From assembly GCF_001051995.2 (NCBI RefSeq), contig NZ_CP014646.1, positions 2,790,001 through 2,854,000 on the forward strand: DNA of 64,000 nt, written 5' to 3'. Shown piece by piece: positions 4,444 to 26,817 of this stretch. A program made the translations under genes and the position numbers. The notes beneath the pieces are model-generated. The model saw nothing but the letters and a program-made list of their open reading frames with translations. It had not been told where the DNA came from and searched no databases. The stretch is from Thauera humireducens (GTDB lineage Bacteria; Pseudomonadota; Gammaproteobacteria; Burkholderiales; Rhodocyclaceae). Every line of letters starts with the position of its first letter. The stretch's first letter is position 1.

Positions 4444-5985
4444 ATGACCAACTCAATCGGCCCCAGCCACCGCTCGATCTTTGCTCGCCTATCGCCTGCA
4501 AGCATCCGCGCGTGGTCGACCAGCCTAACCGGCACCCGGCTTCTCGGAGCAGTCGCGCTGTTGCTGTCGATGATGCTCGCAGCGAGCATGGGCGAGATCA
4601 TCAACCGTGACGGCATCATCTATGTCCGGTCAGCTCAAGCGTTCCTCGATGATGGCCTGAGCGCCGCCATGGAGGTGTACAACTGGCCAGCCTATTCCAT
4701 CCTCATTGCACTTCTTTCGGGCATGAGTGGTCTTTCGCTCGAAGCCGCTGCCCATTTGGTCAATGCGGGCTTGATGGTCCTGCTACTGGACTCCTTTATC
4801 CGCCTGTGTAGGCAGCTCGATCCCGTCAGCGCGAGACCATGGATCGCTGCGCTGGTGTTCCTGACCTTTCCGCCGCTGGCGCACAGCCTGGAGATTTACC
4901 GGGACTGGGGCTACCTCGCCTTCGCAATGTTCGCATTCACTCACCTGCTGCGCTTCTGGCAGGACGACGTTGGACAGATCAAGGATGCGCTGCTTTGGCA
5001 AGGCGGGATGTTCGCAGCCACCCTGTTCCGCGTCGAAGGTGCGGCCCTCCTTGTACTCGCTCCGCTCGCTCTGATTTTTCAAGCCAGACCATGGCGCGCG
5101 CGAATGTGGCGGACGTTTCTTGCAAGTTCGTGGTCGTTACCTGCCCTGCTCCTCGGCATCGCCCTGCTCGCCTTGGGCGAAGTCCAGCTGGGCAAGTTCA
5201 GGGATCTGCTCGTCTATTCAAATCCGAGCACCGTATTTGGCGCGTTCAACGACGTCGCACAACAGTTCTCATCAGCGCTAAACAAGTACAGCGACGACTT
5301 TGCTCCACATATGCTGGCCAGCGGCATCGTCACCGTGGCCACGTGGATGGCATTCAAGAATCTTGGCGCATTCATTGGGTTGATCACGCTCTTTGGCGCG
5401 TACCAATTCGGCCTACCTCGCCAGAACGGGCATCGGTTGATCTATGCGCTGATCGGCATCGTCACCCTCATTGTCATTACGTTTCTCGCGGCTCGCTTGA
5501 TCATAGTCGGGCGTTACGCGCTGCTTGCGTCATGTCTGCTGATGACGATCACAGTCTGGGTGTCGACCCGCTTGTTCGAAGCAAGCAAGCGCAATCGACG
5601 CGGCTATCGGTGGGCGTGGCTTGTCGTATTCACTGGACTGGTTATCGGCGCCCTGGTCAACATCGGCGCACGCCCCGACTACAAGGCGTACATCCGCGAC
5701 GCCGGGCAGTGGATAAAGCACAGCGTCCCGGCCGATACGTTGGTCATCACCAACGATTTCATCATTGACTACTATGCTGAACGCCCCCACGGCCCCAAGC
5801 TCGACAGGCTCGACAAGGTACGTGACCACTTGGCGGCCACTTCGCCACCCTACTATGTGGTGCTGCGCATCAAGGACCACGACATGGACGAGGCGCGTGC
5901 CCTATTCGCGACAGATCCAGCCAAGGAGTTCAGAAGTTCGCGCGCGCCGGAAGGCATCCTCATCTTCCATGTCGAAACGCCCTGA
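4444..5985 (+). CDS. polytopic membrane protein, GT-C/ArnT-like glycosyltransferase candidate
   Basis: 513-residue protein with about ten to twelve hydrophobic segments spread along its length and a soluble C-terminal end. After the first membrane segment it has EIINRDGIIYVRSAQAFLDDG; an acidic D-G-x-x-Y loop in this position is typical of GT-C enzymes that use polyprenyl-phosphate sugars on the periplasmic face (PMT/ArnT-like superfamily). Near the C-terminus PADTLVITNDFIIDYYAERP resembles the periplasmic domain seen in that group. No exact family is recognised. It sits 24 bases after a GT4 gene and 13 before a heptosyltransferase-like gene, consistent with modification of LPS core or lipid A. 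Base composition is somewhat lower in GC than its neighbours. Confidence 0.6.
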   Translation: MTNSIGPSHRSIFARLSPASIRAWSTSLTGTRLLGAVALLLSMMLAASMGEIINRDGIIYVRSAQAFLDDGLSAAMEVYNWPAYSILIALLSGMSGLSLEAAAHLVNAGLMVLLLDSFIRLCRQLDPVSARPWIAALVFLTFPPLAHSLEIYRDWGYLAFAMFAFTHLLRFWQDDVGQIKDALLWQGGMFAATLFRVEGAALLVLAPLALIFQARPWRARMWRTFLASSWSLPALLLGIALLALGEVQLGKFRDLLVYSNPSTVFGAFNDVAQQFSSALNKYSDDFAPHMLASGIVTVATWMAFKNLGAFIGLITLFGAYQFGLPRQNGHRLIYALIGIVTLIVITFLAARLIIVGRYALLASCLLMTITVWVSTRLFEASKRNRRGYRWAWLVVFTGLVIGALVNIGARPDYKAYIRDAGQWIKHSVPADTLVITNDFIIDYYAERPHGPKLDRLDKVRDHLAATSPPYYVVLRIKDHDMDEARALFATDPAKEFRSSRAPEGILIFHVETP

Positions 5986-5998
5986 GCCAAGCCCTGCC

Positions 5999-7045
5999 AT
6001 GAACCGCCTCCTCATCGTCCGCACCTCCGCCATCGGCGACGTCGTCTTCGCATCGCCCTTCGCTGCGGCGGTCAAGCGCACGTGGCCGCAGGCGCATGTG
6101 GCGTGGCTGGTCGAGCCGGGCATTCACGAGCTACTCGCGGCCGATCCCTGCATCGACGAGCTGATCCTGTGGCCGAAAGGCGAGTGGAAGCAGCTCTGGC
6201 ATAACCGCCGGTACGGAGAGCTGTTCCGACGCATCCGCGCGTTCCGCGCCCTGTTGCGGGCAAAGCGCTTCGACACCGCCATCGACATGCAGAGCCTGCT
6301 GAAGAGCGGCCTGCTGACCTGGCTTTCAGGCGCCCCGCGCCGCATCGGGCTCGGCTCGCGCGAAGGCAGCCAATGGCTGATGACCGAGCGCGTGCCCAAG
6401 GGCGGCATCGCGCGCCGTATCGGCTCCGAGTACCGCTATCTGGCCGAACAGCTGGGCCTTGATGCCGGCGAGTTCTTGCCGCGGCTGTGTGTCGGCGACG
6501 ATACCGAGGCCAAGGCGCAGGCGCTGATGGCGGCACACGGCCTGGCGCCGAAGCGGTTCGCCGTGTTTGCCCCCTTCACCACGCGACCGCAGAAGCACTG
6601 GTTCGAGGACGCCTGGCAGGCGCTGGCGCCAAAGGTGCGTGACGAACTGGGGCTCACGCCCGTCATCCTCGGCGGTCCGGCGGACCGCGAGGCCGCGGCG
6701 CGCATCGCCGGAAACACGCCCGGGGTGATCTCGCTCGCCGGCGCCACCCGCCTGCCCGAGGCGGCCGCGCTGATCCGCCATGCCGGCCTGCTGGTCGGCG
6801 TAGACACCGGACTCACCCACATGGGCACGGCCTTCGCCACCCCCACCGTTGCGCTGTTCGGCTCCACCCGCCCCTACCTCGACACCGGCCGCAGCAACGG
6901 CCGCGTGATCTGGCTCGGGCTGCCCTGTTCGCCCTGCCGCCGCCGCCCGACCTGCGACGGCGCCTTCACCTGCCTGCGCGAGATCACCGCCGACCGGGTC
7001 ATGGACGAGGCTCGCGCCGTGCTCAGCGTGGAACACGCATCATGA
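5999..7045 (+). CDS. glycosyltransferase family 9 (heptosyltransferase-like)
   Basis: 348-residue GT9 enzyme, the family of ADP-heptose:LPS heptosyltransferases WaaC, WaaF and WaaQ. The start ATG at 5999 gives MNRLLIVRTSAIGDVVFASP, the family's N-terminal signature (RTSAIGD). The C-terminal donor site shows FAPFTTRPQKHW and GLLVGVDTGLTHMGTAFATP followed by VALFGSTRP, all conserved in GT9. The Cys-rich end (PCSPCRRRPTCDGAFTC) is common in WaaF/WaaQ-like members. It overlaps the next gene by ATGA. A role in LPS inner-core heptose addition is likely; which heptose (I, II or III) is not decidable. The gmhA-hldE fusion at 32-33 kb could supply its donor. Confidence 0.85.
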   Translation: MNRLLIVRTSAIGDVVFASPFAAAVKRTWPQAHVAWLVEPGIHELLAADPCIDELILWPKGEWKQLWHNRRYGELFRRIRAFRALLRAKRFDTAIDMQSLLKSGLLTWLSGAPRRIGLGSREGSQWLMTERVPKGGIARRIGSEYRYLAEQLGLDAGEFLPRLCVGDDTEAKAQALMAAHGLAPKRFAVFAPFTTRPQKHWFEDAWQALAPKVRDELGLTPVILGGPADREAAARIAGNTPGVISLAGATRLPEAAALIRHAGLLVGVDTGLTHMGTAFATPTVALFGSTRPYLDTGRSNGRVIWLGLPCSPCRRRPTCDGAFTCLREITADRVMDEARAVLSVEHAS

Positions 7046-8130
7046 AGGTGCTGCACGTCGAAGCCGGCCGCCACCTCTACGGCGGCGCCAAGCAGGTGCT
7101 CTACATTGTCGAGGGCCTGGCCCGGCGCGGCGTGGAGAACCTGCTCGCCTGCCCGACCGGCGCCCACATCGCAAGCGCCGCGGGTGCCCATGCCCGCGTG
7201 TTCGAGATGCCGATGAAGGGCGACGTCGACATCGGCCTTGCCTTCCGCCTGCGCCGCCTGATCGCCACCGAGCGCCCCGACCTCGTGCACATCCACAGCC
7301 GCCGCGGCGCAGACCTTTGGGGCGGGCTGGCGGCGCGGCTGGCCGGCGTGCCCTGCGTGCTGTCGCGCCGTGTGGACAACCCCGAGGCACGCTGGGTGGT
7401 GGCGGCGAAATACCGGCTGTACGATCACGTGATCACCATCTCGGACGGGATCCGCGACGTGCTGCTGGCTGAGGGTCTCGCACCCGACCGGGTGTCCTGC
7501 GTGCGCAGCGCGGTCGACCCGGCACCCTACCTGATCGACTACGACAGGGCCGGCTACCGGGCGCAACTCGGGCTGCCCGCCGATACCCTGCTCGTCGGCA
7601 TCGTCGCGCAGCTGATCGCGCGCAAGGGCCATCGCCACCTGCTCGCGGCGCTGAAGGACGTCCTGCCTCACCACCCCCACCTGCAGGTGCTGGTCTTCGG
7701 ACGCGGCCCGCTCGAGGCGGAATTGCGCCAGGCCATCGTGGACCAGGGCCTCGCCGGCACGGTCCGCCTGATGGGCTTCGTCGACAACCTGCCCGACATC
7801 CTCGGCTGCCTCGACCTGCTGGCGCACCCGGCCGACATGGAAGGCCTGGGCGTGTCGCTGCTGCAGGCCTCGGCAGCGCGGGTGCCGATCATCGCGAGCC
7901 GGGCCGGTGGCATGCCCGAGGCCGTGCGCGATGGCGAGAACGGCCTCCTGATCCCGCCGGGCGACGTCCCGGCCCTGGCCGCGGCCATGAACCGCCTGCT
8001 CGGCGATGCAACCTTGCGCGCCTGCATGGGCGAGGCTGGCCGCGCCCTGGTACTGCGCGAGTTCTCGACCGAGGCGATGTGCGACGGCAACCTCGCGATC
8101 TACCGCAAGGTCCTGGAGGAACACCGATGA
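7042..8130 (+). CDS. GT4-family glycosyltransferase
   Basis: 362-residue GT-B enzyme, ATG at 7042 overlapping the previous stop. MKVLHVEAGRHLYGGAKQVL holds the Gly-rich acceptor loop. The donor half has VGIVAQLIARKGHRHLLAAL, VLVFGRGPLEAEL and the nucleotide-binding region GLGVSLLQASAARVPIIASR, then GGMPEAVRDGENGLLIPPGD. In the E-x7-E motif the first acidic position reads E-G-L-G-V-S and the second is a Gln (LLQAS), a variation found in some GT4 LPS core enzymes. Tightly coupled to the heptosyltransferase-like gene before it and the GT4 gene after it, so probably an LPS core transferase. Confidence 0.85.
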   Translation: MKVLHVEAGRHLYGGAKQVLYIVEGLARRGVENLLACPTGAHIASAAGAHARVFEMPMKGDVDIGLAFRLRRLIATERPDLVHIHSRRGADLWGGLAARLAGVPCVLSRRVDNPEARWVVAAKYRLYDHVITISDGIRDVLLAEGLAPDRVSCVRSAVDPAPYLIDYDRAGYRAQLGLPADTLLVGIVAQLIARKGHRHLLAALKDVLPHHPHLQVLVFGRGPLEAELRQAIVDQGLAGTVRLMGFVDNLPDILGCLDLLAHPADMEGLGVSLLQASAARVPIIASRAGGMPEAVRDGENGLLIPPGDVPALAAAMNRLLGDATLRACMGEAGRALVLREFSTEAMCDGNLAIYRKVLEEHR

Positions 8131-9197
8131 AATCGCTGCACATGATCGGCAGCACGCACATGGGCGGCGCCGAGCGCTGGTTCACGCGCTTTCTCGCCGC
8201 CATGCTGCGCCAGGGCGAGGACGTCGAGGCTGTGGTGCGACGCGGGTCCGAACTCGCCCAGCATCACCTCGCCGGCATTCCTCATCACGAGCTGCCGTTC
8301 CGCACCGTCTGGGATCCGTTTTCGCGCCATGCCGTGTCGCGGCTCATCGCCCGCAGCGACGCGCCCATCGTGCAGACCTACATGGGTCGCGCCACCCGCC
8401 TCACCCATCTCAAGCGCGGCCGCGGCAAGGTGCATGTGTCCCGCCTTGGCGGCTACTACAAGCTCGCCCCCTTCCGCCACGCCCATGCCTGGATCGGCAA
8501 CACCAAGGGCCTGTGCGACTGGATGATCCAGGGTGGCCTGCCCGCCGAGCGCGTGTTTCACATCACCAATTTCGCCGATCCGGCCCGTGCGGTGGCCGCG
8601 GACGAACTGCATGCCCTGCGCCAGCGCATCGGCGTGCTGCCAGAAGACTGGATCATGGTGACCGCCGGGCGGCTGATCGACGTCAAGGGACACCGCTACC
8701 TGGTCGACGCGCTCAGCAGCCTGCCCGCCGAGATCGACGGCCAGCGCCTGCGGCTGGTGGTCCTGGGCGACGGCGACCTGGCGGCGCCCCTTGCCGAACA
8801 GGCGCGCCAGGCGGGCGTGGCCGACCGCATCCTGTGGGCGGGCTGGCAGCATGATCCGGCGCCCTGGTTCCACGTCGCCGACATGGTGGTGTTCCCCTCG
8901 CGCGACGCCGAGACCCTGGGCAACGTCATCCTCGAAGCCTGGGCCTATGGCAAGCCGCTGGTCGCCAGCGCCTTCCGTGGCGCGCGCGAGATCACCCGGC
9001 CTGGCGAAGACGCCTGGGTCGTCCCGTGCGACGATGGTGCGGCGCTTGCGGCCGGCATCGAACACGTCATCCGCAACCCCGGCCTGCAACGACAGATGGT
9101 GGCGAACGGCCTCGCCCGCATCGAGCGCGACTTCTCCGAGACCGCGGTGATCGCACAATACCGTGCGCTCTACGCCCAATTGCTCGACAATCGCTGA
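8127..9197 (+). CDS. GT4-family glycosyltransferase
   Basis: 356-residue GT4 enzyme; ATG at 8127 within an ATGA overlap. The start MKSLHMIGSTHMGGAERWF carries the GGAERW loop. Donor-domain motifs are VTAGRLIDVKGHRYL, LVVLGDGDLAAPL and VVFPSRDAETLGNVILEAWA, with E at both ends of the E-x7-E element, followed by GKPLVASAFRGAREI. Residues around HAWIGNTKGLCDWMI form the usual inter-domain segment where such enzymes receive the acceptor. Coupled to the preceding genes; separated from the deacetylase by an 86-base repeat-like insert. Likely an LPS core or modifying transferase; substrate unknown. Confidence 0.85.
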   Translation: MKSLHMIGSTHMGGAERWFTRFLAAMLRQGEDVEAVVRRGSELAQHHLAGIPHHELPFRTVWDPFSRHAVSRLIARSDAPIVQTYMGRATRLTHLKRGRGKVHVSRLGGYYKLAPFRHAHAWIGNTKGLCDWMIQGGLPAERVFHITNFADPARAVAADELHALRQRIGVLPEDWIMVTAGRLIDVKGHRYLVDALSSLPAEIDGQRLRLVVLGDGDLAAPLAEQARQAGVADRILWAGWQHDPAPWFHVADMVVFPSRDAETLGNVILEAWAYGKPLVASAFRGAREITRPGEDAWVVPCDDGAALAAGIEHVIRNPGLQRQMVANGLARIERDFSETAVIAQYRALYAQLLDNR

Positions 9198-9283
9198 AGT
9201 GGCACGACCCCCACGCTCACTTCGTTCGCTGCCCCCCGAGGGGGCGCAGGCCTCCCTTGGGGCGGCCCGGCGGGAGGCCTGAC
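9198..9283. repeat. GC-rich REP-like intergenic palindrome
   Basis: The gap between the GT4 gene and the deacetylase holds two consecutive palindromes. One is C-rich/G-rich (CCCCC-GA-GGGGG around 9236-9244). The second pairs AGGCCTCCC (9248-9256) with GGGAGGCCT (9272-9280). Sequences of this look, with ACGCTCACTTCGTTCGCTG before a C-run, recur between genes in many betaproteobacteria; copy number in this genome cannot be seen here. The second arm ends three bases before the next ATG and contains the only GGGAGG ribosome-binding candidate of that gene. Confidence 0.6.
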
Positions 9284-10057
9284 ATGGACACCGGCATCAA
9301 CATCCTCATGTACCACCAGGTCGGCGAGTTCGCACCAATGAAGGCGCACCGCTCGACCTACTGCGACCATCGCCGCTTCGCCCGCCAGATGGCCTTTCTG
9401 GCGCGCTTCGGCTACACCGTGCTATCGATGGACCAGGTGTTGGCCTGCCTGCGCGGCGAGGCGCCCGTCCCGCCCAAGGCGGTAGCGCTGACCTTCGACG
9501 ACGGCTACGAGAACTTCTACGAGTACGCCTTCCCGGTGCTGAAACAGCACGGTTTCCCGGCGATGGTGTACCTGATCTCGGGCCTGCTCGGCCAACCCTC
9601 GAGTTGGTTCGCCAAGGACGGCCGCGACACCCCGCCGCTGATGAGCGCCGAACGCGTGCGCCAGCTGCATCGCGAAGGCATCGACTTCGGCTCGCACTCG
9701 GCCACCCACGTCAAGCTGGCCGAACAGGACACGAACCGCATCCGCGAGGAAGTCACCCGCTCCAAGCGCGAACTGGAAGACGTGCTCGGCGCCGCGGTCG
9801 CGCATTTCTGCTACCCCTACGGCAGCCACGACATGCGTGCGGTCGAAGCCGTGGCCGAAGCCGGCTACCAGTGCGCAACCACCTGCGTGCGCGCGCCCGC
9901 GACGACCGACGACGACCCGCTGACCCTGCCACGCAAGGCCGTGTCCTGGGGCGACAACCTCATCGGCCTGTGGTGGCGCCTGCACATGAAGAACACGCCC
10001 AAGCAGGCACCGATCAGGCGGCCGGACAGCAGCTTCAGCGCAGCAGGCAGTCGGTAG
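9284..10057 (+). CDS. polysaccharide deacetylase (NodB homology, CE4)
   Basis: 257-residue carbohydrate esterase family 4 protein that removes acetyl or formyl groups from N-acylated sugars using a divalent metal. Motif 1 is TFDDG at residues 70-74 (catalytic base and metal-binding Asp). Motif 2 is SHSATH at 137-142 with the two metal His residues. Motif 3 is CYPYGSHD at about 177-184. There is no signal peptide (MDTGINILMYHQVGEF), so it may act in the cytoplasm or at the inner leaflet, as ArnD does. The MYHQV start is common in LPS-linked deacetylases. Its ribosome-binding site is embedded in the palindrome just upstream. Converges with msbA. Confidence 0.87.
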   Translation: MDTGINILMYHQVGEFAPMKAHRSTYCDHRRFARQMAFLARFGYTVLSMDQVLACLRGEAPVPPKAVALTFDDGYENFYEYAFPVLKQHGFPAMVYLISGLLGQPSSWFAKDGRDTPPLMSAERVRQLHREGIDFGSHSATHVKLAEQDTNRIREEVTRSKRELEDVLGAAVAHFCYPYGSHDMRAVEAVAEAGYQCATTCVRAPATTDDDPLTLPRKAVSWGDNLIGLWWRLHMKNTPKQAPIRRPDSSFSAAGSR

Positions 10058-10096: not shown

Positions 10097-11878
10097 CTAC
10101 TCCTCGCCCCCTACGGCCTGCAGCCGCGCATAAGGGCCGCCGCGAACAGACAGCTCGGCATGCGTGCCGCGCTCGACGATGCGGCCGTTCTCCATCACCA
10201 GGATCTGGTCCGCCTTTTCGATCGTCGACAGCCGGTGCGCGATCACGATCGTGGTCCGCCCGACCATCAGGCGCTCGATCGCCGCCTGGATCAGGCGCTC
10301 GGACTCGGTATCCAGCGCCGAGGTCGCTTCGTCGAGGATCAGGATCGGCGCGTTCTTCAATAGCGCACGCGCAATTGCCAGCCGTTGCCGCTGGCCGCCG
10401 GAGAGCATCACGCCGTTCTCGCCGATCTCGGTATCCAGCCCATTCGGCAGCCGGTCGATGAACTCCTTCGCCGCGGCGGCCTCCACCGCCGCCTCGATCG
10501 CCTCGCGCGGCGCGTCGGCCAGGTCGCCGTAGGCGATGTTGTTGGCGACCGTATCGTTGAACAGCGTCACCTGTTGCGACACCAGCGCCACGTGGCGGCG
10601 CAGGTTGCGCAAGGTGTAGTCGCGCACGTCCACACCGTCGATACATATCTCGCCGCAGTCGTGGTCGTAGAAGCGGGTGAACAGGCTGGCGAGCGTGGAC
10701 TTGCCGCTGCCCGAGCGCCCCACCAGCGCCACCATCTGTCCGGGCTGCACGTCGAATGAAAGCTCGTGCAGCACCTCGCGCTCCGTTCCCGGATAGCGGA
10801 ACGACAGCCCGCGCACCTCGATGCGGCCCTCGACCCGCTCACGCACGACCGTGCCCTGGTCAAGCTCCGAGGGCTCGTCGAGTTGCTCGAAGATGCTCTC
10901 CGCCCCTGCCACACCCCGCTGGATCTTGGAACTCACCTCCGACAACTGGCGGATCGGCTTGGGCAGCATCGCAGCCGCGGTGATGTAGGCGACCAGGTCG
11001 CCCGCGCTCGCGTCGCCGCGCAGCAGCAGCACCAGGAACAGCACCACCGACATCGCCGAATAGATGACGACCTGCAGAATCGGCGTGTAGGTCGCGTTGG
11101 TCTTGCCCATGCGCAACTGCTTGCGCGTGTTGTTCTCGCTCGCCTCGCGGAAACGGCGGGACTCGTAGTCCTCCCCGCCGAAGCTGCGGACCACCCGGTA
11201 GCCCTGGATGGTCTCTGACACCACATGGGTCACGTCGCCCATCGCACGCTGGATCTTCTTCGCCTGCTTGCGAAACTTGCGCGACGCCCGCGACACCAGC
11301 ACGCTGATCACCGGCAGCACCGCCACCATCACCAGCGTCAGCTTCCAGTTCATCCAGATCAGGTAGCCGAACAGGAAGACGACGCTGAGCCCTTCGCGGA
11401 TCACGATCTTGATCGCATCGGTCGCCGCCGCGGTCACCATCGTCACGTTGAAGGTGATGCGCGAGATCAGGTGCCCCGAGTTGTGCCGGTCGAAGTAATG
11501 GTTGGGCAGCCGCAGCATGCTGTCGAACAAGGCCAGGCGCAGGTCATGCACCAGTCCGAGCGACACCTTGCTCATGAAGTAATTGCCCAGGTAAGACCCC
11601 ACCCCCTGCCAGATCGCGATCAGCACGATCATCACCGGCACGGCCTTGACGAGGTCAACGCCGTCAAGGAACGGCACGCCGAGCTGCAGACCCTCCGTCG
11701 CCCCCCCCAGGCCATCGACGAAGTACTTCATCACCCCGGCCAGCATCGGCTGGGACGAGGCGAAGATCATGAAGCCGAGGATGCTGACCGCGAACGTGCC
11801 CACGTACGGGCGCACGTAGCTGAGCAGGCGGAAGTAGATGCGCAGGCTGGAGGGGGGTGTTGCCTGAAGGGGTGTCAT
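10097..11878 (-). CDS. msbA: lipid A export ABC transporter, permease/ATPase MsbA
   Basis: 593-residue half-transporter that dimerises and flips core-lipid A across the inner membrane. N-terminal ABC_membrane domain (residues about 20-310, six helices) and C-terminal ATPase domain. Walker A is GRSGSGKST, the Q-loop ends VALVSQQVTLFNDTVANNI, the signature is LSGGQRQRLAIARAL, Walker B is ILILDEATSALD and the switch His is in TIVIAHRLSTIEKAD. Length matches MsbA (about 580). The ATG at 11878 follows a plausible promoter about 100 bases upstream. The neighbouring LPS core genes fit the role. A general lipid or multidrug exporter is the alternative. Confidence 0.92.
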   Translation of the reverse strand: MTPLQATPPSSLRIYFRLLSYVRPYVGTFAVSILGFMIFASSQPMLAGVMKYFVDGLGGATEGLQLGVPFLDGVDLVKAVPVMIVLIAIWQGVGSYLGNYFMSKVSLGLVHDLRLALFDSMLRLPNHYFDRHNSGHLISRITFNVTMVTAAATDAIKIVIREGLSVVFLFGYLIWMNWKLTLVMVAVLPVISVLVSRASRKFRKQAKKIQRAMGDVTHVVSETIQGYRVVRSFGGEDYESRRFREASENNTRKQLRMGKTNATYTPILQVVIYSAMSVVLFLVLLLRGDASAGDLVAYITAAAMLPKPIRQLSEVSSKIQRGVAGAESIFEQLDEPSELDQGTVVRERVEGRIEVRGLSFRYPGTEREVLHELSFDVQPGQMVALVGRSGSGKSTLASLFTRFYDHDCGEICIDGVDVRDYTLRNLRRHVALVSQQVTLFNDTVANNIAYGDLADAPREAIEAAVEAAAAKEFIDRLPNGLDTEIGENGVMLSGGQRQRLAIARALLKNAPILILDEATSALDTESERLIQAAIERLMVGRTTIVIAHRLSTIEKADQILVMENGRIVERGTHAELSVRGGPYARLQAVGGEE

Positions 11879-12220: not shown

Positions 12221-14092
12221 ATGGGCTATTTGATCGAAAAGTACACCGAAGAATATTTTCTCCGAGAAGGCGAATCTGGCCAGGTACTTCACTATGGCGT
12301 AGAAGGAGTTGAGTCGTTTCGGCGAGGAAATCTGCGCGAGCATGACCAAGAAATCCTTGAGCATATTAATTTTAATGGCGCACGTGTTCTTGAGTTCGGA
12401 TTTGGTCGCGGAGAGACCATTAAATATGTATGGGAACGAAAAGCCGCCAGCTATATTGGAGTTGACTTTTCTGAAGCGGCCTGCCGCATTGCGAGGGAGT
12501 TTCTAGAACGCTACGCTATTTCAGGGCCGACGATCTATCAGTCGGATGCCTTGGACTTTGTGCGGGCCTATGCAGGCGGTCAGATTGGCAACGCCTCTGG
12601 CCAACTTGATATCGTGATGATGCTTGACTTCATCGAACATGTACCCCGAGCGGAACTGGTGGAAATTTTAACCGCTCTGAGACCATGCATGTCTGCATCT
12701 GCTGTTGTCGTTGTCAATACGCCCGACTTTTTCGTTGATAACGATGTCGTTACGGAGGGTCTTAACGAGCTAGGGCGCGATTCATCGGATTTTGTAGCCG
12801 AAACACAGGGAATGCATTGCAATCGTTACACCCTCGACAGTCTACGCCAGTTCTTCGCTGGCCTTGGGTATCTCGCGGTATCGCGTGGGCATTATTTCGT
12901 TCTGGCGACAACACCGCAGAATAACTGGCTGGGGGAGTTGAGTTACCGGCAACTGTGGAATGAAGCGCGGGATCGCGGTTGCAGGTTGGCTGGCGCGTGG
13001 CCGCGCGAGAGCTTTGAAGTTCCTTACCCAGTTGCCGAAACACCCGAGCTTAAAACCTTTGGTGAAGGGAATCTTTCGGGAGTTTCCCTATACGTCACGA
13101 AGAGTTATGAAGAATATTACCGGAACGGCAACTATGACGATTTCTTGTCTGAGTACCTGACCCGCTTCGATTTGTCAGGCCAAACGGTGTTTGATATCGG
13201 CGCTTTCGTCGGAGCAAACACTCTGCAATTTTCTCGCATGGTCGGAGAGGGGGGACTAGTCTGCTCCTTTGAGCCCAATCCCTTTAATCGAGATCGCCTG
13301 CGCCTCAATTTATCAGAGAATCCCCACCTTGATGAGCGCGTAAGGGTCTTCCCGTTTGCGGTATCTGACCAAGAAGGGCAGATTAACTTCCGGCTTCATC
13401 GCAATGTGGATGCGGGAATCAGCAGCGCATCATACATCGATGGCGCTCATACCACGATGACGGACGTCGAGTTGTCAAACTTCGGATTCACAGATGTTTC
13501 CGTGGACGTCTGCACGATTGATGAGTTTGTCGAGCGGACTGCTTTTTCGCCAAAATGCATCAAGCTGGACATTGAAGGCGCAGAACATCTCGCGCTATTT
13601 GGGGCGGCGAAAACGCTGGCCACACATCGTCCGATTCTTTTGATCGAACTGCATTCGACCTTCTGCGCAGCAACCGTTATCAATACTCTGGCAAAATTTG
13701 GCTACACGAGTGAAGTGTTGTTCGTTGAGCCTGATGGCCGCTGTTTCATTGGATCAAATTCAGCGGCGCCAATTGATGCAAAACCTGAAACAGGGGTTTT
13801 GCAATTGAAGTTTGACACTTTGCGTGCCGAGATGGCTCACATACGGCGAAAGTCTGAGGCAGACGCCGCGCGCCTGAGTGCTTCGACCCAGGAGTGTTCC
13901 AGTCTGAAGCTAGAATTAGCCGGGGCAAATGATCGCGTGCGAGAATTAGAAGTTCAGCAGTTGGATTTGCAGCGCCGCTTTAACGAGCAGCAGGTCATAT
14001 TGGCTTCGGTCCAGGCTAACTTGTTGCGCTATCAACTCTTCCCCATCATACGGCTAGCCCGCAAGATCAAGCGGATTTTCAGCGGGAGCTAA
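12221..14092 (+). CDS. double methyltransferase with coiled coil (class I MTase + FkbM); possible O-chain terminator
   Basis: 623 residues with three parts. Residues about 50-230 are a class I SAM methyltransferase: motif I VLEFGFGRGET (56-66), acidic strand end IGVDFS (79-84) and MMLDFIEHVP (133-142). Residues about 320-505 are an FkbM-family methyltransferase: VFDIGAFVGANTLQFS (323-338), SFEPNP (349-354) and the family signature CIKLDIEGAEHLAL (446-459). Residues about 528-600 are heptad-rich and charged, a predicted coiled coil, and 603-620 is a basic amphipathic end. It is the first gene of the locus, followed by wzm/wzt. FkbM enzymes O-methylate sugars; capping the non-reducing end in the manner of WbdD is inference. 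Ribosome-binding site weak. Confidence 0.75.
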   Translation: MGYLIEKYTEEYFLREGESGQVLHYGVEGVESFRRGNLREHDQEILEHINFNGARVLEFGFGRGETIKYVWERKAASYIGVDFSEAACRIAREFLERYAISGPTIYQSDALDFVRAYAGGQIGNASGQLDIVMMLDFIEHVPRAELVEILTALRPCMSASAVVVVNTPDFFVDNDVVTEGLNELGRDSSDFVAETQGMHCNRYTLDSLRQFFAGLGYLAVSRGHYFVLATTPQNNWLGELSYRQLWNEARDRGCRLAGAWPRESFEVPYPVAETPELKTFGEGNLSGVSLYVTKSYEEYYRNGNYDDFLSEYLTRFDLSGQTVFDIGAFVGANTLQFSRMVGEGGLVCSFEPNPFNRDRLRLNLSENPHLDERVRVFPFAVSDQEGQINFRLHRNVDAGISSASYIDGAHTTMTDVELSNFGFTDVSVDVCTIDEFVERTAFSPKCIKLDIEGAEHLALFGAAKTLATHRPILLIELHSTFCAATVINTLAKFGYTSEVLFVEPDGRCFIGSNSAAPIDAKPETGVLQLKFDTLRAEMAHIRRKSEADAARLSASTQECSSLKLELAGANDRVRELEVQQLDLQRRFNEQQVILASVQANLLRYQLFPIIRLARKIKRIFSGS

Positions 14093-14147: not shown

Positions 14148-14208
14148 GGCCCCGCCACCTCTATCTGTGCCGTATGCATGTAACTGCAATTCTTTTTGGA
14201 ATGCTTTT

Positions 14209-14994
14209 GTGATACTTAAAAAAATTTCCAAGTATTTGCCGGTTTTTTTTGACTTGGTTAAGTCTGATTTTCAGCGTCGCTACCTTGGAACATATCTTGG
14301 GGCATTCTGGGCAGTAGCTGCGCCATTTTCAATCATTGGCGTATTGCTGTTCGTTTTCAATGTGGGTTTTCGCTCTGGCCCTGTAGCTGGCGTTGATTTC
14401 GACGTTTGGCTCGTATCAGGCCTAATAGTCTGGTTTTACATCAGCGACGCCATCGTTTCGGGAGGCAACTCCATAACGGAATATGGCTTTCTCGTGAAAA
14501 AAATTCGATTCATGACCGAACTGCTGCCGGTCGTTAGAATTACATCATCTCTTTATATTCACTTGATTAATTTTTCTCTTCTGTTGGTTTTGCTTCTCTT
14601 TCGCGGGCATTATCCAACCTTACATTGGGCGCAGCTTCCGTATTATTTTGTCGCCCTATATATTTTTGTCCTAGCGCTTGGAATGATCGCTGCCGTGATA
14701 CAGGTTTTTGTGAAAGACTTCGGCGGAGTAATCGCAATTCTAATGCAGATCGGATTCTGGGCAACACCGATTTTGTGGGACGCCAAGATTTTGCCAGATC
14801 ATTTTAGATTCATAGTGACGTACAACCCTGCTAATTACCTTGTTCAGGGCTACCGCGAAACCTTGTTGTTTGAAAAGTGGTTTTTCGATCGTCCGCTAGA
14901 GAGTTTATTCTTTTGGGGGCTGACCTTGGCGCTCTTTACCGTCGGGCTCACACTATTTAATCGAACCAAACATCAATTTGCAGACGTACTTTAA
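14209..14994 (+). CDS. wzm: O-antigen/polysaccharide ABC transporter permease Wzm
   Basis: Inner-membrane half of the Wzm/Wzt exporter, which moves undecaprenyl-linked polysaccharide to the periplasm. 261 residues with six hydrophobic segments in ABC2_membrane order. The N-terminal amphipathic stretch DLVKSDFQRRYLGTYLGAFW is characteristic of the family (the cytoplasmic gate helix before TM1). I chose the GTG at 14209, with TTGGA 8 bases upstream, because it gives the usual length; an in-frame GTG at 14167 would add 14 unrelated residues. It lies 8 bases before wzt, so both are co-translated. Pairing with wzt and absence of wzx/wzy in the window argue for the ABC-transporter-dependent route. 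Confidence 0.9.
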   Translation: MILKKISKYLPVFFDLVKSDFQRRYLGTYLGAFWAVAAPFSIIGVLLFVFNVGFRSGPVAGVDFDVWLVSGLIVWFYISDAIVSGGNSITEYGFLVKKIRFMTELLPVVRITSSLYIHLINFSLLLVLLLFRGHYPTLHWAQLPYYFVALYIFVLALGMIAAVIQVFVKDFGGVIAILMQIGFWATPILWDAKILPDHFRFIVTYNPANYLVQGYRETLLFEKWFFDRPLESLFFWGLTLALFTVGLTLFNRTKHQFADVL

Positions 14995-15002
14995 TCCTGC
15001 CG

Positions 15003-16322
15003 ATGAAAAATGCTATTTCCGTTCGTAATCTGACAAAAACTTATCGCCTTTATCGGTCCAAGGCGGATCGTGCCGTAGATATTTTCCTACCGTTTGGCAA
15101 GGTTCGATATCAAAACCATCATGCCCTGCGTGACATTACCTTTGATGTTGATGTGGGTGAGTGTGTTGGCATTATTGGTCGGAACGGCTCTGGGAAGTCG
15201 ACCTTGCTAAAGATTCTTACTGGTGTTTTGGCGCCGACCCAAGGGGAGGTAAAGGTCCATGGAAAGATTGCCTCTCTGCTCGAACTAGGCGCAGGTTTCA
15301 ACCCTGAACTGACGGGCCGAGAGAATATTTTTTTCCACGGCACGCTGATGGGCTGCACGCGGAAAGAGATTGAGACACGTCTTGACGAGATTATAGCTTT
15401 TGCTGATATCGGGGAGTTTATCGAACAACCGGTCAAGGTGTATTCCAGCGGGATGTTCGTTCGGCTCGCCTTTGCTGTTTCGGTGCATACTGATCCGGAC
15501 GTCTTGATCGTCGATGAAGCCCTCGCGGTCGGCGATGTACGGTTTCAGAAAAAATGCATCGACTTTATGCGACGCTACAAGGACAGTGGCAAGACCATTT
15601 TGTTTGTGAGTCATGACATTTTCACCGTTAAATCTTTCTGCAATCGCCTTGTACTGCTCCATGATGGCCAGATTGAACTGATCGGTAATCCTGACGAGGT
15701 GGCCAATCGATATCACCAGATAATGTTCCCAAAGTCGGCAGAAGCACCGACCCATGCCGTGACCTCAGGGGCTCATCTCGATCTAGGCGTCGAAGTCTAT
15801 GATGGGAGTTACTGGCTAGATGTTGACGTTGATGTTGCCGATCATCAGTGGGGCGACGGTGCTGCTTGGATTAAACAACTACGCGTAGGCGGGATTCGCG
15901 AGCCGAATCTTTTCGGATGGCAGGATGAGGTGGTGATCGAGGCTGTGGTTCAATGGAGTCCCGATGCGGCAGGTCGGATATCTCTTGAGCACAACGTCCC
16001 TCCGCGTTTATTGATTGGTTACCGTTTTGAAAACAGTCAGGGATGGGTCATAACCAATTTCACAAATGCCATGATTGCAGACGATGCTATTGATGTTGAT
16101 CTTTTGACGCATTCGAGCTGCCTCATTCGCTGTCGGATTGGCGCAATGCAATTGGCATCCGGGCATTACTTCATTACCCCAGGTATCGCGATCGGCACAA
16201 AGGACAATCTGTTTCCAGTTAAGGAATACACCAATTTGATTCATTTGTATTGCGATACAAATGAATCGGTACTTGGGCAGATTATTTTGCCATATGACAT
16301 TCATGTTGTGGACAAGGCATGA
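15003..16322 (+). CDS. wzt: polysaccharide ABC transporter ATPase Wzt with C-terminal carbohydrate-binding domain
   Basis: 439 residues. The N-terminal ATPase domain (about 1-240) has Walker A GRNGSGKST, the signature YSSGMFVRLAFAVSVH and Walker B VLIVDEALAVGD. The C-terminal extension (about 265-435) is a beta-rich domain of the Wzt_C type. In E. coli O8/O9a this domain binds the modified, methyl-capped non-reducing end and makes export depend on chain termination. Its presence, with a multi-domain methyltransferase two genes upstream, suggests a capped polymer here too. ATG at 15003, 8 bases after wzm. Some Wzt proteins lack this domain, so its presence is informative. Confidence 0.92.
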   Translation: MKNAISVRNLTKTYRLYRSKADRAVDIFLPFGKVRYQNHHALRDITFDVDVGECVGIIGRNGSGKSTLLKILTGVLAPTQGEVKVHGKIASLLELGAGFNPELTGRENIFFHGTLMGCTRKEIETRLDEIIAFADIGEFIEQPVKVYSSGMFVRLAFAVSVHTDPDVLIVDEALAVGDVRFQKKCIDFMRRYKDSGKTILFVSHDIFTVKSFCNRLVLLHDGQIELIGNPDEVANRYHQIMFPKSAEAPTHAVTSGAHLDLGVEVYDGSYWLDVDVDVADHQWGDGAAWIKQLRVGGIREPNLFGWQDEVVIEAVVQWSPDAAGRISLEHNVPPRLLIGYRFENSQGWVITNFTNAMIADDAIDVDLLTHSSCLIRCRIGAMQLASGHYFITPGIAIGTKDNLFPVKEYTNLIHLYCDTNESVLGQIILPYDIHVVDKA

Positions 16323-16377: not shown

Positions 16378-17442
16378 ATGGATAAGATTCCCGTCGTTTC
16401 ATCTGCCCCGAGTGCTGTTTCGATTGGGCGACAGGTATGGGCTGACTTCGCCAGGGTTGTCGCCGTTTATGGTGTGGTGCTTATCCACTCTTGCGGTGCT
16501 GCGTTTTATCAGTACAGCAAAATCCCACTATCAAGTTGGTTGCAGGCGGTCGTACTCGACTCTGTAGTGCGGAGCGCGGTGCCGCTTTTCGTGATGCTTT
16601 CCGGGGCCTTGATTTTCGGCACTGCTGCCAAAGGAGGCACAATTGTTGAAACCATTCATCAAATCCCTCGGCGTCTGATGCGAGTTTTTGTCCCACTAGT
16701 TATATGGAGTGGATTGTATCTTTTGTACCTCGCTCAATCTGGGCTTGAGGTTGATATAAAGAGCATTTTGATAAAGCCTGCGATGTACCACCTATGGTTT
16801 GGGTACATGATTCTAGGGATTTATTTTTTGTTACCCATTCTTCGCCCGATTTACACATCGATGCAGGGCTCCGTAAGCTTTGCTTCGTATTTCTTTGTCG
16901 TTTGGATTGTTTTGACTTCGGTGTCAGTTTACTGGCCGATTTCTTTCCTGTCCCTTCTACAACAAAATAGCCTGTTTGGCTACGGTGGGTATTTCATTCT
17001 TGGGGCTCTGCTCGCCACGGTTCAAATACCCTTCTCATCGATTGTGTGGGCAGTAGTTTGGGGGGCTAGTGTCCTGCTGACAGCTTGTATAACTTGGCTC
17101 AAATCAGAATCTGCCGGATTGCCAGTAGAAACGGCTTTTGACTATTTTAGTCCAAATGTTGTAGTAGCTTCGGTGGCAGCTTTTGTTTTGTTAAGTCGGA
17201 TCCGCATTGCCAATCACCTGACCGATTTTATTAAAGCCCTTAGTGACCTGAGCTTCATCGTCTATTTCGTCCATGTATTGGTTTTGGAATATGTCCGCTT
17301 TAATCCAATTTTAATACAAGAAACAGAAAAATGGCCCGTAGGGTTGCTCATCATAGCGATTTCGTTAATCACCTTCTTACTTAGTATGCTTATTGCGTCC
17401 ACTATTCGATTAGCTCCTGGGAGCCGACATGTATTCGGATGA
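16378..17442 (+). CDS. acyltransferase 3 family membrane O-acyltransferase
   Basis: 354-residue integral membrane protein with about ten hydrophobic helices and the acyltransferase_3 (PF01757-like) N-terminal signature ADFARVVAVYGVVLIHSCG: the R in the first segment and the H after VVLI are the family's conserved pair. Members move acetyl or other acyl groups from a cytoplasmic donor onto surface sugars (WecH, OafA-like). It probably O-acetylates the polysaccharide. The ribosome-binding site is poor (GGATTGAG about 10 bases before ATG). It overlaps the next gene by 14 bases. AT-rich relative to the flanks, as is the rest of the locus. Confidence 0.83.
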   Translation: MDKIPVVSSAPSAVSIGRQVWADFARVVAVYGVVLIHSCGAAFYQYSKIPLSSWLQAVVLDSVVRSAVPLFVMLSGALIFGTAAKGGTIVETIHQIPRRLMRVFVPLVIWSGLYLLYLAQSGLEVDIKSILIKPAMYHLWFGYMILGIYFLLPILRPIYTSMQGSVSFASYFFVVWIVLTSVSVYWPISFLSLLQQNSLFGYGGYFILGALLATVQIPFSSIVWAVVWGASVLLTACITWLKSESAGLPVETAFDYFSPNVVVASVAAFVLLSRIRIANHLTDFIKALSDLSFIVYFVHVLVLEYVRFNPILIQETEKWPVGLLIIAISLITFLLSMLIASTIRLAPGSRHVFG

Positions 17443-18718
17443 TAAGGAGGCGAAGGGCAATGCGTCTGGAGTACTTCCCAACGCCTTCCCGAGACAGCCA
17501 TCCCGTGGAAGGGTTCTGTTGTTTAGCTATGCCTTTCCTCCGATGCAGGTACAAATGACCCCTGCCGTTTTTAAGCCGATGGCAGCGATCGTTCAGCAAG
17601 GCTATGACGTCGATGTCGTATGTGCCGACTCTTTTTGCCGCGAGCTCCCGCTCGATGCAAGTTTGCTACCGCATGCCAAAAAACTTTTTCCGAATATTAC
17701 CCGCCTTAATCCGCCGGCGGGACTTCTGGGGTGGATTCGAAGGAAGTCTAATGTGCTGTCTCGTATTCCCGATTTAATGACGGTTTTAAGCAGAACGGCT
17801 TATGAGCATTTGATGGATATCGACCTTGATCAATATGAATCAGTGATTACCTGGTCGCCGTTTCATTCCATAAATCCCGTAATGGTTGAGGTCAAGAAAG
17901 CCAGAAAGAGAGTTCGCTGGATTGCCCAATTCAGCGACCCTTGGGCGGGCAACCCATTAGAGGTCCATCGACTAACTAAGATGTGGAATGCTTACCATGA
18001 GCCGCAGACAGTGAGGTCAGCTGATCATATTGTTCACAGCTCTGCGTATTCCCGTAATCTGATGATGGGAAGTCACCCTGATCATCTGAACCGGAAAACC
18101 AGTGTTTTGCCACACGTGTTTAACTCCGATCTTTATCCCCAACGCCCCAAAGCGAAAAATGAGAAAATAGTAATGCGCTACGTTGGCGTGTTATATGGAC
18201 GGCGCTCTCCGGAACCTTTGTTCGCTGCGCTAAACAATCTTTTTGAACGCCGTAGGGATTTGTCAGATCGTTTGGTAGTCGAGTTTGTAGGGCATGTTCC
18301 CCAAGCCATGTTGCAAACGGCGGCTGCGCGGGCATTGCCGCCTGGCTGTGTTCGTAATGTTCCTACAGTGGACTACTTGAAGTCTCTGGAGTTGATGTAC
18401 GACGCGGATATCCTTCTGCTGATCGAGGCTGATATTCGCCAGAATCTGTTTCTCGCTAGTAAGGTGTCGGACTATTTTGGCGCCAATACTCCGATTGTTG
18501 GACTGTTGCCACCGGGAGCGTCTGAAGATGCTTTGGCTGGATTGGGGGGCTGGCATGCGCGCCCAAACGATATTCCTTCTATTTCTAATAGTTTGCAATT
18601 AGCCTTGTCGCACGTAATTGCCAATAGGGGAGAATCTTGGTGCAACGATGATTTCCGGTTGACCTTTGGGGGTCAATCGGTTGCTGAACGATTCCTCCAG
18701 ATTTTCCGGGGGTTTTGA
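17429..18718 (+). CDS. glycosyltransferase, GT4-like
   Basis: 429-residue protein with a GT-B-type layout. After a polar N-terminus it has RVLLFSYAFPPMQVQMTPAV, the FPP loop typical of one large GT4-like group. Mid-protein VRWIAQFSDPWAGNPL corresponds to the conserved D-P-W segment of these enzymes. In the donor half, MRYVGVLYGRRSPEPLFAAL and DADILLLIEADIRQNLFLASKVSDYFGANTPIVGLLPPG replace the usual E-x7-E region. No exact family name is recognised. It is co-transcribed with the exporter genes, so it is likely to add one sugar of the repeat unit. ATG at 17429 preceded by weak GGGAG. Confidence 0.72.
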   Translation: MYSDDKEAKGNASGVLPNAFPRQPSRGRVLLFSYAFPPMQVQMTPAVFKPMAAIVQQGYDVDVVCADSFCRELPLDASLLPHAKKLFPNITRLNPPAGLLGWIRRKSNVLSRIPDLMTVLSRTAYEHLMDIDLDQYESVITWSPFHSINPVMVEVKKARKRVRWIAQFSDPWAGNPLEVHRLTKMWNAYHEPQTVRSADHIVHSSAYSRNLMMGSHPDHLNRKTSVLPHVFNSDLYPQRPKAKNEKIVMRYVGVLYGRRSPEPLFAALNNLFERRRDLSDRLVVEFVGHVPQAMLQTAAARALPPGCVRNVPTVDYLKSLELMYDADILLLIEADIRQNLFLASKVSDYFGANTPIVGLLPPGASEDALAGLGGWHARPNDIPSISNSLQLALSHVIANRGESWCNDDFRLTFGGQSVAERFLQIFRGF

Positions 18719-18723
18719 TAACT

Positions 18724-19998
18724 ATGAAAAAGAAGATTCTGTTTGTTGCGATGCAAATGAGCCAGCACACCGTTCGCTGGATCAATCAGATTTCTGATGC
18801 AGGGTGGGATGTTCATCTTTTCCCGGTGAACTATCTCCCGGTGCATGGAGAACTTCGCAACGTTACAATCCATCAGCCGTGGTACGTTGTTAGACCGCGC
18901 GTTTTGTTGCAGCGGCTTTTGAGAAGCCCAAAGACGCTATTCCATAATGTCGAGAGCGAGTTACATCCGAACCGTTGTCCGTCCAAGGCAATCTATCCGT
19001 TACCAGTTCTTGCGCGATGGCTGCCCTATCTGAATGGATTTAAGCGGGTACGCTTGGGAGAGTCGGACGCTAGCGCACCGTTGCTCTACGGACCCAAAGT
19101 GCTGGCTAGGCTAATCCGCAAGCTCAAGCCAGACTTGGTTCACTCTCTGGAGTTTCAACACTGTGGCTACAATGTGCTGAAGGCGAAGGAACTCTATGGC
19201 TCGGGCTTTCCGAAATGGTTGGCGACGAACTGGGGTAGCGACATCTATTACTATCGCCAGTTTGAGGATCATCAGAGTCAGATCTCCCGCCTGCTTAAGT
19301 CTGTGGACTACTATTCTTGTGAGTGCGAACGGGACGTCCAACTGGCCTTAAAGCTTGGCCTGACCGCACCAGTAATGTCGGTAATGCCAAACACGGGTGG
19401 ATTTGATCTGAGTAAACTTGAGGGTGTTCGAGCGATTCACCCACCCTCGAAGCGTAGAATCCTCATGGTCAAAGGTTATCAGCATTTCGCTGGCCGGGCG
19501 CTGACTGCGCTTGATGCTCTTGAGCGTTGCGCTCAAGAATTGAAGAGCTATCTCGTGGTCGTCTTTTCTGCGTCTCCGGAGATATATGCCCGGGTCGATG
19601 AGCTACGTGACTACGTGGGCATCAACATCCGGATCCTGCCTCATACTAGTCACGACGCAATGCTGCGCATGTTCAGTCGCGCCAGGATTTATCTGGGTGT
19701 AAGCGTTTCAGATGCCATCAGTACATCAATGCTTGAGGCTATGGCGATGGGAGCGTTCCCGATACAAACTGATACCTCTTGCTGTACCGAATGGATTGAA
19801 TGTGGGAAAAGCGGCTTTCAGATTCCAGCGGACAATCCAGAAGTGATCGCAGAGCGTATTAAAATGGCATTGGCTAACGATGATTTGGTTGAGGTTGCGG
19901 CCGAGTTGAATTGGAAAACAACGCAGGAGCGTCTAGACCGCCGTCTGCTCAGCAAAAAAGCTGAGGGATTTTATCGCGCTATTTTTTCTGCTGAGTGA
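18724..19998 (+). CDS. GT4-family glycosyltransferase
   Basis: 424-residue GT-B glycosyltransferase. The ATG at 18724 is preferred; a TTG at 18715 overlapping the previous stop would add three residues. The donor domain shows RILMVKGYQHFAGRALTALD and the binding loop SVSDAISTSMLEAMAMGAFPI, followed by QTDTSCCTEWIECGKSGFQI, a GT4 arrangement with one E at the second acidic position. The N-terminal half has the long inserted stretch common in enzymes for amino-sugar repeat units, but substrate cannot be inferred. Lower-GC codon use like its neighbours. Confidence 0.75.
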   Translation: MKKKILFVAMQMSQHTVRWINQISDAGWDVHLFPVNYLPVHGELRNVTIHQPWYVVRPRVLLQRLLRSPKTLFHNVESELHPNRCPSKAIYPLPVLARWLPYLNGFKRVRLGESDASAPLLYGPKVLARLIRKLKPDLVHSLEFQHCGYNVLKAKELYGSGFPKWLATNWGSDIYYYRQFEDHQSQISRLLKSVDYYSCECERDVQLALKLGLTAPVMSVMPNTGGFDLSKLEGVRAIHPPSKRRILMVKGYQHFAGRALTALDALERCAQELKSYLVVVFSASPEIYARVDELRDYVGINIRILPHTSHDAMLRMFSRARIYLGVSVSDAISTSMLEAMAMGAFPIQTDTSCCTEWIECGKSGFQIPADNPEVIAERIKMALANDDLVEVAAELNWKTTQERLDRRLLSKKAEGFYRAIFSAE

Positions 19999-20016
19999 CT
20001 CAAGACAACTGGCCTC

Positions 20017-21060
20017 ATGATGCAGCCACCACGTAATAAACTTGTTATTCATGCGCCGAACGTTCATACGGGCGGCGGGCTGGTTTTGTTACGTGCATTA
20101 CTGCAGTATGAAGCCCAACCCCTTCGCCTCGCATTCCTGGATACGCGGCTCATGCAGAACATGCCAAGGATCACTGAAGCAAAGTTCATATATGTGCGGC
20201 GCTCTTTGATTTCTCGTTTGCGGGCTGAGTTACTGCTGTGGTTCAGTGCTAGATTTGACGACACTCTTTTATGCTTTCACGGCCTACCGCCCCTTTTGCC
20301 TTATAGGGGATCGGTAGTAGTGTTCCTACAGAACCGTTTATTGATCGAGTGTTGCAGTCTGGCAGGCTACCCATTACGTGTCCGAGTGAGACTTTGGTTG
20401 GAACGAATTTGGTGCAGGCTGCTTCAGCGGCGCTGTTCACATTACATCGTTCAAACACCCTCCATGGCTGCCTTATTGAAGAATTGGCTGCGGCGAGATG
20501 TGCCTATTTCGGTTATCCCTTTTGCTCCGACAGATCCAGTCAAGTCGCCTACTGGTAAAATCTTTAACGGCTGGAGGTTCGATTTCGTATATGTATCCTC
20601 TGGCGAAGCTCACAAGAATCATATGAACCTAGTCGAAGCGTGGCGGCTTCTGGCTGCGTCGGGTTGCAGGCCATCGTTAGCGTTGACCCTGGATACTCAA
20701 GCCTATCCCGAGTTGTGCACTCATATTTCACGCGTTGCTGATGAGTACGCTTTGACGGTTACTAACCTAGGTTTGTTGTCTAAAGAAGCGGTCAATAGTT
20801 TGTATCAGTCGGTTGGAGCAATGATCTATCCTTCTACCACCGAATCGTTTGGACTCCCGTTAATCGAGGCTGCCAAGTGGGGCTTGCCGATCCTGGCACC
20901 TGAGCTCGACTACGTGCGTGATGTGGTTAACCCCACCGAAACCTTTGATCCTAACTCTCCTGTGTCGATCGCAAGAGCGGTCAGCCGTTTTCTTGGTGTT
21001 GCCGAAAAACCGATCGAGATCAGGACAGCCGCTGCGTTTCTGGAAGAAGTTTTGCGATGA
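20017..21060 (+). CDS. GT4-family glycosyltransferase
   Basis: 347-residue GT4 enzyme; two adjacent ATGs at 20017 and 20020 are both possible. The acceptor loop is NVHTGGGLVLLRAL. The donor domain has FVYVSSGEAHKNHMNLVEAW and the nucleotide-sugar site MIYPSTTESFGLPLIEAAKWGLPI with both Glu residues of the E-x7-E motif, then LAPELDYVRDVV. The E-S-F-G-L-P-L-I-E pattern is that of mannosyl- and glucosyl-type GT4 transferases (WbaZ/RfaG-like), though donor choice is not certain. It overlaps the following wbuB-like gene by 4 bases (ATGA). Confidence 0.85.
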   Translation: MMQPPRNKLVIHAPNVHTGGGLVLLRALLQYEAQPLRLAFLDTRLMQNMPRITEAKFIYVRRSLISRLRAELLLWFSARFDDTLLCFHGLPPLLPYRGSVVVFLQNRLLIECCSLAGYPLRVRVRLWLERIWCRLLQRRCSHYIVQTPSMAALLKNWLRRDVPISVIPFAPTDPVKSPTGKIFNGWRFDFVYVSSGEAHKNHMNLVEAWRLLAASGCRPSLALTLDTQAYPELCTHISRVADEYALTVTNLGLLSKEAVNSLYQSVGAMIYPSTTESFGLPLIEAAKWGLPILAPELDYVRDVVNPTETFDPNSPVSIARAVSRFLGVAEKPIEIRTAAAFLEEVLR

Positions 21061-23149: not shown

Positions 23150-23161
23150 GGGAGGTATCCA

Positions 23162-25295: not shown

Positions 25296-25299
25296 ACCC

Positions 25300-26801: not shown

Positions 26802-26817
26802 GACCCTCACGTTCTTC

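Follow-up and report, generated by a model that had tools for sequence, protein, structure and literature searches.

The window, a stretch of 64,000 nucleotides from Thauera humireducens, contains a single open frame on the forward strand at positions 12221-14092, which encodes a protein of 623 amino acids. As the preliminary description of this DNA had claimed, wzm and a wzt with a C-terminal binding domain follow it directly. The wzm gene (14167-14994, + strand) encodes an ABC-2 permease (PF01061) that is 56% identical to its counterpart in Ramlibacter paludis; homology to the Ramlibacter protein begins at residue 24 and, therefore, the true start of wzm may be later than 14167. The wzt gene encodes an ATPase domain (15003-15731, + strand; PF00005), with PDB matches to chains of TarH, TagH and O-antigen (RfbE-named) ABC transporters, and a candidate cap-binding domain at its C-terminus (15732-16322, + strand). 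The latter scores 22.9 bits against PF14524, under the gathering cut-off of 30.4, and for this reason it is named Wzt_C-like here. It aligns in hhalign with eight Wzt_C domains (probability 94, E = 1.4e-7). The top Foldseek match of its model is 2r5o, a Wzt C-terminal domain (E = 0.014; none reached 0.001), and this serves as supporting evidence only, since the mean pLDDT of the model is low (52.0).

The genes that follow are all on the + strand. An acyltransferase (16378-17442; PF01757), for which the 40 kb analysed in Ramlibacter gave no match, is followed by four glycosyltransferase-like genes (17429-22298; starts at 17429, 18715, 20017 and 21057). Pfam glycosyltransferase families match three of the four; the gene at 17429-18718 has no Pfam match, while the Ramlibacter gene that is 63% identical to it weakly matches PF13579 (29.1 bits against a cut-off of 29.7). 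Next are three genes at 22295-25295 that match PF04321, PF02719 with PF08485, and PF02350, and that we take from these families to be fnlB-, fnlA- and fnlC-like genes of the UDP-L-FucNAc pathway. The last group by Pfam (25129-28653) comprises an epimerase, a Bac_transf sugar transferase and a dehydratase, presumably WbpM-like; none has a match of its own in the 40 kb of Ramlibacter, and the gene at 26818 matches only the fnlA-like gene there.

In bins of 2 kb, the GC content is 46-57% between 12 and 26 kb, against 61-73% for the rest of the first 40 kb. To the left of the locus lies an ABC exporter gene (10097-11878), which we assume to be msbA-like; it is 98.8% identical in a congener (L173), where the Wzm/Wzt locus that follows is a different one. 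On account of the low GC content and of this near-identical exporter beside a different locus, the region looks like an exchangeable O-antigen island, and the boundary at the msbA-like gene is likely to be the site at which O-antigen loci are swapped. Further upstream (5765-10057) are a heptosyltransferase-type GT9 gene, two GT4-type genes and a polysaccharide deacetylase gene, which possibly serve in the synthesis of the LPS core.

The protein encoded at 12221-14092 begins with a class I methyltransferase domain, termed MT1 (residues 1-229; 12221-12907, + strand). MT1 falls among the class I families PF13489, PF13649 and PF08241, with 43.6 bits against PF13489 (gathering cut-off 27), and a structural search recovered its Rossmann fold. 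A linker (residues 230-295; 12908-13105, + strand) leads to an FkbM methyltransferase domain (residues 296-512; 13106-13756, + strand), which scores 63.6 bits against PF05050 (cut-off 22.7). The later part of the linker folds with the second domain in the AlphaFold model, a monomer built from 10 sequences only, and the structural alignment of the second domain begins at about residue 270. Sequence, Pfam, AlphaFold and structural search agree that both domains are complete with their motifs intact, which bears out the two enzymes named in the preliminary description. Its further point, that a second methyltransferase takes the place of a kinase, also stands: no Pfam kinase domain matches the 623 amino acids, and both Pfam and the structural search identify the second domain as a methyltransferase. 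A hidden kinase of the kind found in Klebsiella pneumoniae O7 was considered and is ruled out, because the linker, with its 66 residues, leaves no space for one and a methyltransferase occupies the second position. Among the 13 solved chains that match the protein in the PDB at E up to 1 (phmmer) there is no named terminator. WbdD does not appear among the best 50 matches in each of two structural searches of the main model, which has no bearing either way.

The enzyme domains are followed by a coil-like helix (residues 526-603; 13796-14029, + strand), delineated by a heuristic coil score of our own and by AlphaFold, which predicts a helix over residues 523-621. The segment of 78 amino acids would measure about 116 angstrom (~12 nm) if fully helical. 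Its composition is strongly helical. The preliminary description had called residues 528-600 or so heptad-rich; the coil-like helix is upheld, but the heptad phase is not significant (83 of 1000 shuffles reach it), and neither is the hydrophobic period (301 of 2000 shuffles). No tandem repeats were found in the coil. Of 15 other proteins in the window, one exceeds the threshold of this score, over 32 residues, which is short of the 35-residue limit used in the survey described below. The helix ends in a basic stretch (14030-14089, + strand) which, by its charge composition, is a candidate membrane-associating segment: residues 600-623 contain six K/R and no D/E. The amphipathic end proposed earlier is thus basic and predicted to be helical, with membrane association as a candidate property.

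Is this arrangement of domains found elsewhere? Full-length matches among 61 genomes (the source genome and 60 relatives) were confined to the source genome, with 12 others matching in part. At E up to 1e-10, 20 of 369 genomes of the class match, the source genome included, and the other 19 do so over the FkbM part only; each of the 52 records returned by a plasmid search covers less than 80% of the protein. Relatives of MT1 are rare. At E up to 1e-12 they occur in two of 398 genomes of the phylum (one being the source genome) and in two of 399 genomes of the family of Ramlibacter (one being Ramlibacter), the second match being partial in both cases. A genome collection (84,980 species by its description) was scanned with two short MT1 peptide patterns, which gave 52 loci and misses members that lack the patterns.

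Within the reach of this pattern-limited scan, the only other protein found with MT1, FkbM, a coil and a basic end is that of Ramlibacter paludis (L041). The two proteins are 67% identical in MT1, 58% in FkbM, 19% in the coil and 39% in the basic end, which has eight K/R and one D/E in Ramlibacter and is predicted to be helical in both. The Ramlibacter gene sits directly before wzm and wzt (the latter 57% identical). Both loci also contain the four glycosyltransferase-like genes (39-64% identity), two of which are inverted in Ramlibacter relative to the window, as well as fnlB (66%), fnlA (75%) and fnlC (60%). It might be argued that the gene is a relic or a degenerate copy on a transferred island and has no present role, as the low GC content would allow. 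The frame is open, however, the motifs are intact and both enzyme domains are 58-67% identical to those of Ramlibacter, which makes this very improbable.

While the enzymes are conserved, the coils differ greatly in length: 337 amino acids in Ramlibacter (tail, residues 531-867; ~50 nm if fully helical) against 78 in the window. The Ramlibacter tail has a peak period of 3.52 residues, which none of 2000 shuffles reaches. Self-identity of this coil (L041:11591-12601) is 35% at a lag of 14 residues and 34% at a lag of 28, compared with a highest shuffled maximum of 20% (1000 shuffles), and in its DNA Tandem Repeats Finder detects units of 21 nt (4.0 copies) and 42 nt (2.4 copies). Thus, much of the Ramlibacter coil is built of two-heptad units of 14 amino acids.

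How common are proteins that join a methyltransferase to a coil beside Wzt_C? Among 276 genomes of the class, 63 contain a match to PF14524, at 70 places in all, and every one of these regions was analysed. At least 16 of the 70 places have a methyltransferase and a coil in one protein (11 by our own profile and five more by Pfam), and several of these proteins also carry glycosyltransferase domains. The count is a lower bound, as 14 further coil-rich ORFs lay outside the Pfam scan and contig ends truncate some of the regions. The home-made profiles for MT1 and FkbM never matched the same ORF at these 70 places, and hence no protein with MT1, FkbM and a coil was found there. It follows that kinase-free methyltransferase-coil proteins are ordinary in this setting, and the form with two methyltransferases is rare. 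The absence of the kinase, which the preliminary description had treated as new, is therefore no novelty; WbdD of Escherichia coli O8 is likewise described as a simple methyltransferase (PMC3482155).

Two proteins near wzt in the survey regions (L109:9967-11214 and L111:5129-6673) have the order DUF4214, coil, methyltransferase, with the methyltransferase at the opposite end. An apparent fusion in Luteimonas (L083) with FkbM and methyltransferase in reverse order was rejected, since it is actually two reading frames.

With five same-genus regions added (Wzt match at E up to 1e-60), the survey comprised 75 regions, in 70 of which the Wzt ORF was recovered. In one of the same-genus genomes, a protein beside wzm and wzt has the order FkbM, coil, GT4 (L170:5895-8459), FkbM being the only head domain found. 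The C-terminal domain of the window Wzt is 49% identical to that of Ramlibacter, and it has just two other matches at E up to 1e-3 in the survey regions, both at 23-24% identity. For this reason, the putative terminator and its reader domain on Wzt seem to travel together.

What might the protein do? In PMC11231755, the coil is presented as the marker of the terminator strategy, and WbdD is described as having a catalytic head, a coil and an amphipathic helix associated with the membrane. The coil separates the polymerase from the terminator, chains are ended only when they exceed a minimum length, and a transporter module reads the end; the ruler role of the coil is established for E. coli O9 and for K. 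pneumoniae O12 (PMC11231755). For Aquifex, a methyl-only cap read by Wzt is established, in the form of methylated mannose or rhamnose (PMC9445017). The Thauera protein has WbdD-type parts in the corresponding order, and the same three-part protein precedes wzm and wzt in Ramlibacter. Further support comes from the FkbM-coil-GT4 protein beside wzm and wzt in the same genus (L170) and from an MT1 relative that contains a weakly Wzt_C-like stretch (L043, see below). On these grounds we regard it, with some reserve, as the probable coiled-coil chain terminator of an ABC-transporter O-antigen pathway, in which a head of two methyltransferases would cap the non-reducing end. Catalysis, substrate, capping and ruler function are all features that we infer.

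In the proposed mechanism, glycosyltransferases would extend a lipid-linked chain at the membrane, and the coil would hold the two-methyltransferase head away from it. A chain that has grown far enough to meet the head would be O-methylated at its non-reducing end. Methylation would stop growth and create an end that the C-terminal domain of Wzt can read, and this reading would license export through Wzm/Wzt. The two enzymes probably both act at or near the chain end, either by adding two methyl groups or by one enzyme making the substrate of the other. The earlier suggestion of a terminator whose coil measures the chain draws support from the anatomy of head, coil and basic end and from the wzm/wzt context, which are kept in Ramlibacter; the short coil in the window and its weak heptad signal speak against it.

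The two enzymes could instead divide their labour, with one capping the chain and the other methylating a different residue (internal or in the adaptor) or being simply carried along. Single-methyltransferase coil proteins are, as described above, common beside Wzt_C, and the same genus has a coil protein with a lone FkbM head (L170). Moreover, the serotypes of Vibrio cholerae O1 are described as differing by a methyl on the terminal sugar, whose presence or absence depends on the rfbT/wbeT methyltransferase, so that export need not depend on a terminal methyl; RfbT can be called FkbM-like solely on a weak PF05575 match of a relative. The linkage between the two domains argues otherwise. It was counted over 54 loci, namely the 52 from the pattern scan and two Azospirillum plasmid loci, many of the distant loci being short. 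FkbM accompanies MT1 in seven of the seven close relatives (34% identity or more across essentially the entire domain), in the same protein in six and in the next gene in one (L044), whereas it occurs anywhere in the locus in two of 47 distant relatives. As four of the seven are from Azospirillum, they amount to about four independent cases. A division of labour is, therefore, rather unlikely.

The four Azospirillum loci (L037, L038, L042 and L045) encode MT1-GT2-FkbM proteins that are 34-38% identical in MT1, with the GT2 domain shown by Pfam for one of them. None of the four has a coil by the heuristic score, and none of the four loci contains a match to the window Wzm or Wzt within flanks of 6-10 kb. 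The A. lipoferum gene lies among hydrogenase genes. Since close relatives of MT1 exist there without coil or Wzm/Wzt, the pair of MT1 and FkbM was probably recruited to the coil/Wzm/Wzt system, and it may be older than its use beside Wzm/Wzt. Homologues away from Wzm/Wzt had been named beforehand as evidence against a terminator. The enzyme pair does occur in this way, within these flanks, in all four Azospirillum loci, but both coil-bearing proteins known here adjoin Wzm/Wzt.

These relatives also lend themselves to a reading without any terminator, in which repeat units would receive their methyl groups from the pair as they are synthesised, and the coil would serve only to hold glycosyltransferases at the membrane as a scaffold. 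A pair combined with GT2, and with no Wzm/Wzt in the flanks, is what such a role would lead one to expect. A plain modifier of repeat units needs no cap-reading transporter, and yet both coil-bearing forms adjoin wzm and wzt with a related Wzt C-domain, which makes this reading quite unlikely. A separate gene, from a gammaproteobacterial MAG (L043:599-3037), encodes MT1 and FkbM separated by a stretch that weakly resembles Wzt_C (E = 7.9e-4, below the cut-off); a cap-binding domain inside a modifying enzyme would parallel the CBM of K. pneumoniae O7, as described in PMC11231755.

The terminator reading can be extended, tentatively. The chain end could be doubly methylated, or verified in two steps, by two unrelated methyltransferases and read by a co-inherited Wzt domain, and the coil could be an evolvable ruler, lengthened by duplication of 42 nt (two heptads) in register. 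The Thauera cluster would then make short chains, and its Ramlibacter counterpart chains several times as long; this fuller version is possible but doubtful. The window and Ramlibacter form a natural pair, with one shared enzyme head, a shared transporter and many shared sugar genes but rods of 78 and 337 residues, which allows a test, beyond the enterobacteria, of whether chains become longer or shorter with the coil. The 14-residue units of Ramlibacter hint at how such rulers change.

Is this, as was first proposed, a new type of terminator? The pairing of MT1 and FkbM in one coil protein is new and unusual, while the machinery of coiled-coil terminators is already known. Open-access searches found no paper combining FkbM with Wzm, Wzt, O-antigen and methyltransferase, and none combining FkbM, O-antigen and coiled-coil; the phrase 'two methyltransferase' was not found in the first ten of 51 open-access papers on related terms, and searches on multiply methylated caps added nothing of use. 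The Thauera and Ramlibacter proteins suggest that FkbM methyltransferases, alone (as in L170) or paired, be counted among the candidate chain-end modifiers of coil proteins.

Judged against WbdD-type terminators, the protein adjoins wzm and wzt, has an N-terminal enzyme followed by a predicted coil (with a significant heptad signal in Ramlibacter only), and is accompanied by a Wzt with a cap-reader-like C-domain. The Azospirillum proteins differ in having GT2 between the two domains, no coil, and no Wzm/Wzt match in their flanks. The methyltransferase-coil (-GT) proteins beside Wzt_C share its neighbourhood and logic, but these searches found in them no second domain of the FkbM type. ORF6 of K. 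pneumoniae O7, a methyltransferase-kinase-CBM-coil-GTs protein (PMC11231755), is similarly modular, with extra domains between methyltransferase and coil. It differs in its unannotated kinase of 223 residues and its fused polymerase modules; the Thauera protein has no such large unassigned stretch and no fused GT. WbdD of E. coli O8 and K. pneumoniae O5 shares the methyl-only chemistry, the coil and the ABC pathway. Here there are two methyltransferase domains, and a chain with FnlABC-type sugars is presumed in place of the polymannose. The order of parts corresponds to that described for WbdD of E. coli O9a and K. pneumoniae O3 in PMC3482155 and PMC11231755: an N-terminal methyltransferase, a second catalytic domain, a coil, a C-terminal membrane-associating region (a candidate here) and a transporter module that reads the end. 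In O9a and O3 the second domain is a kinase, whereas in Thauera it is an FkbM methyltransferase.
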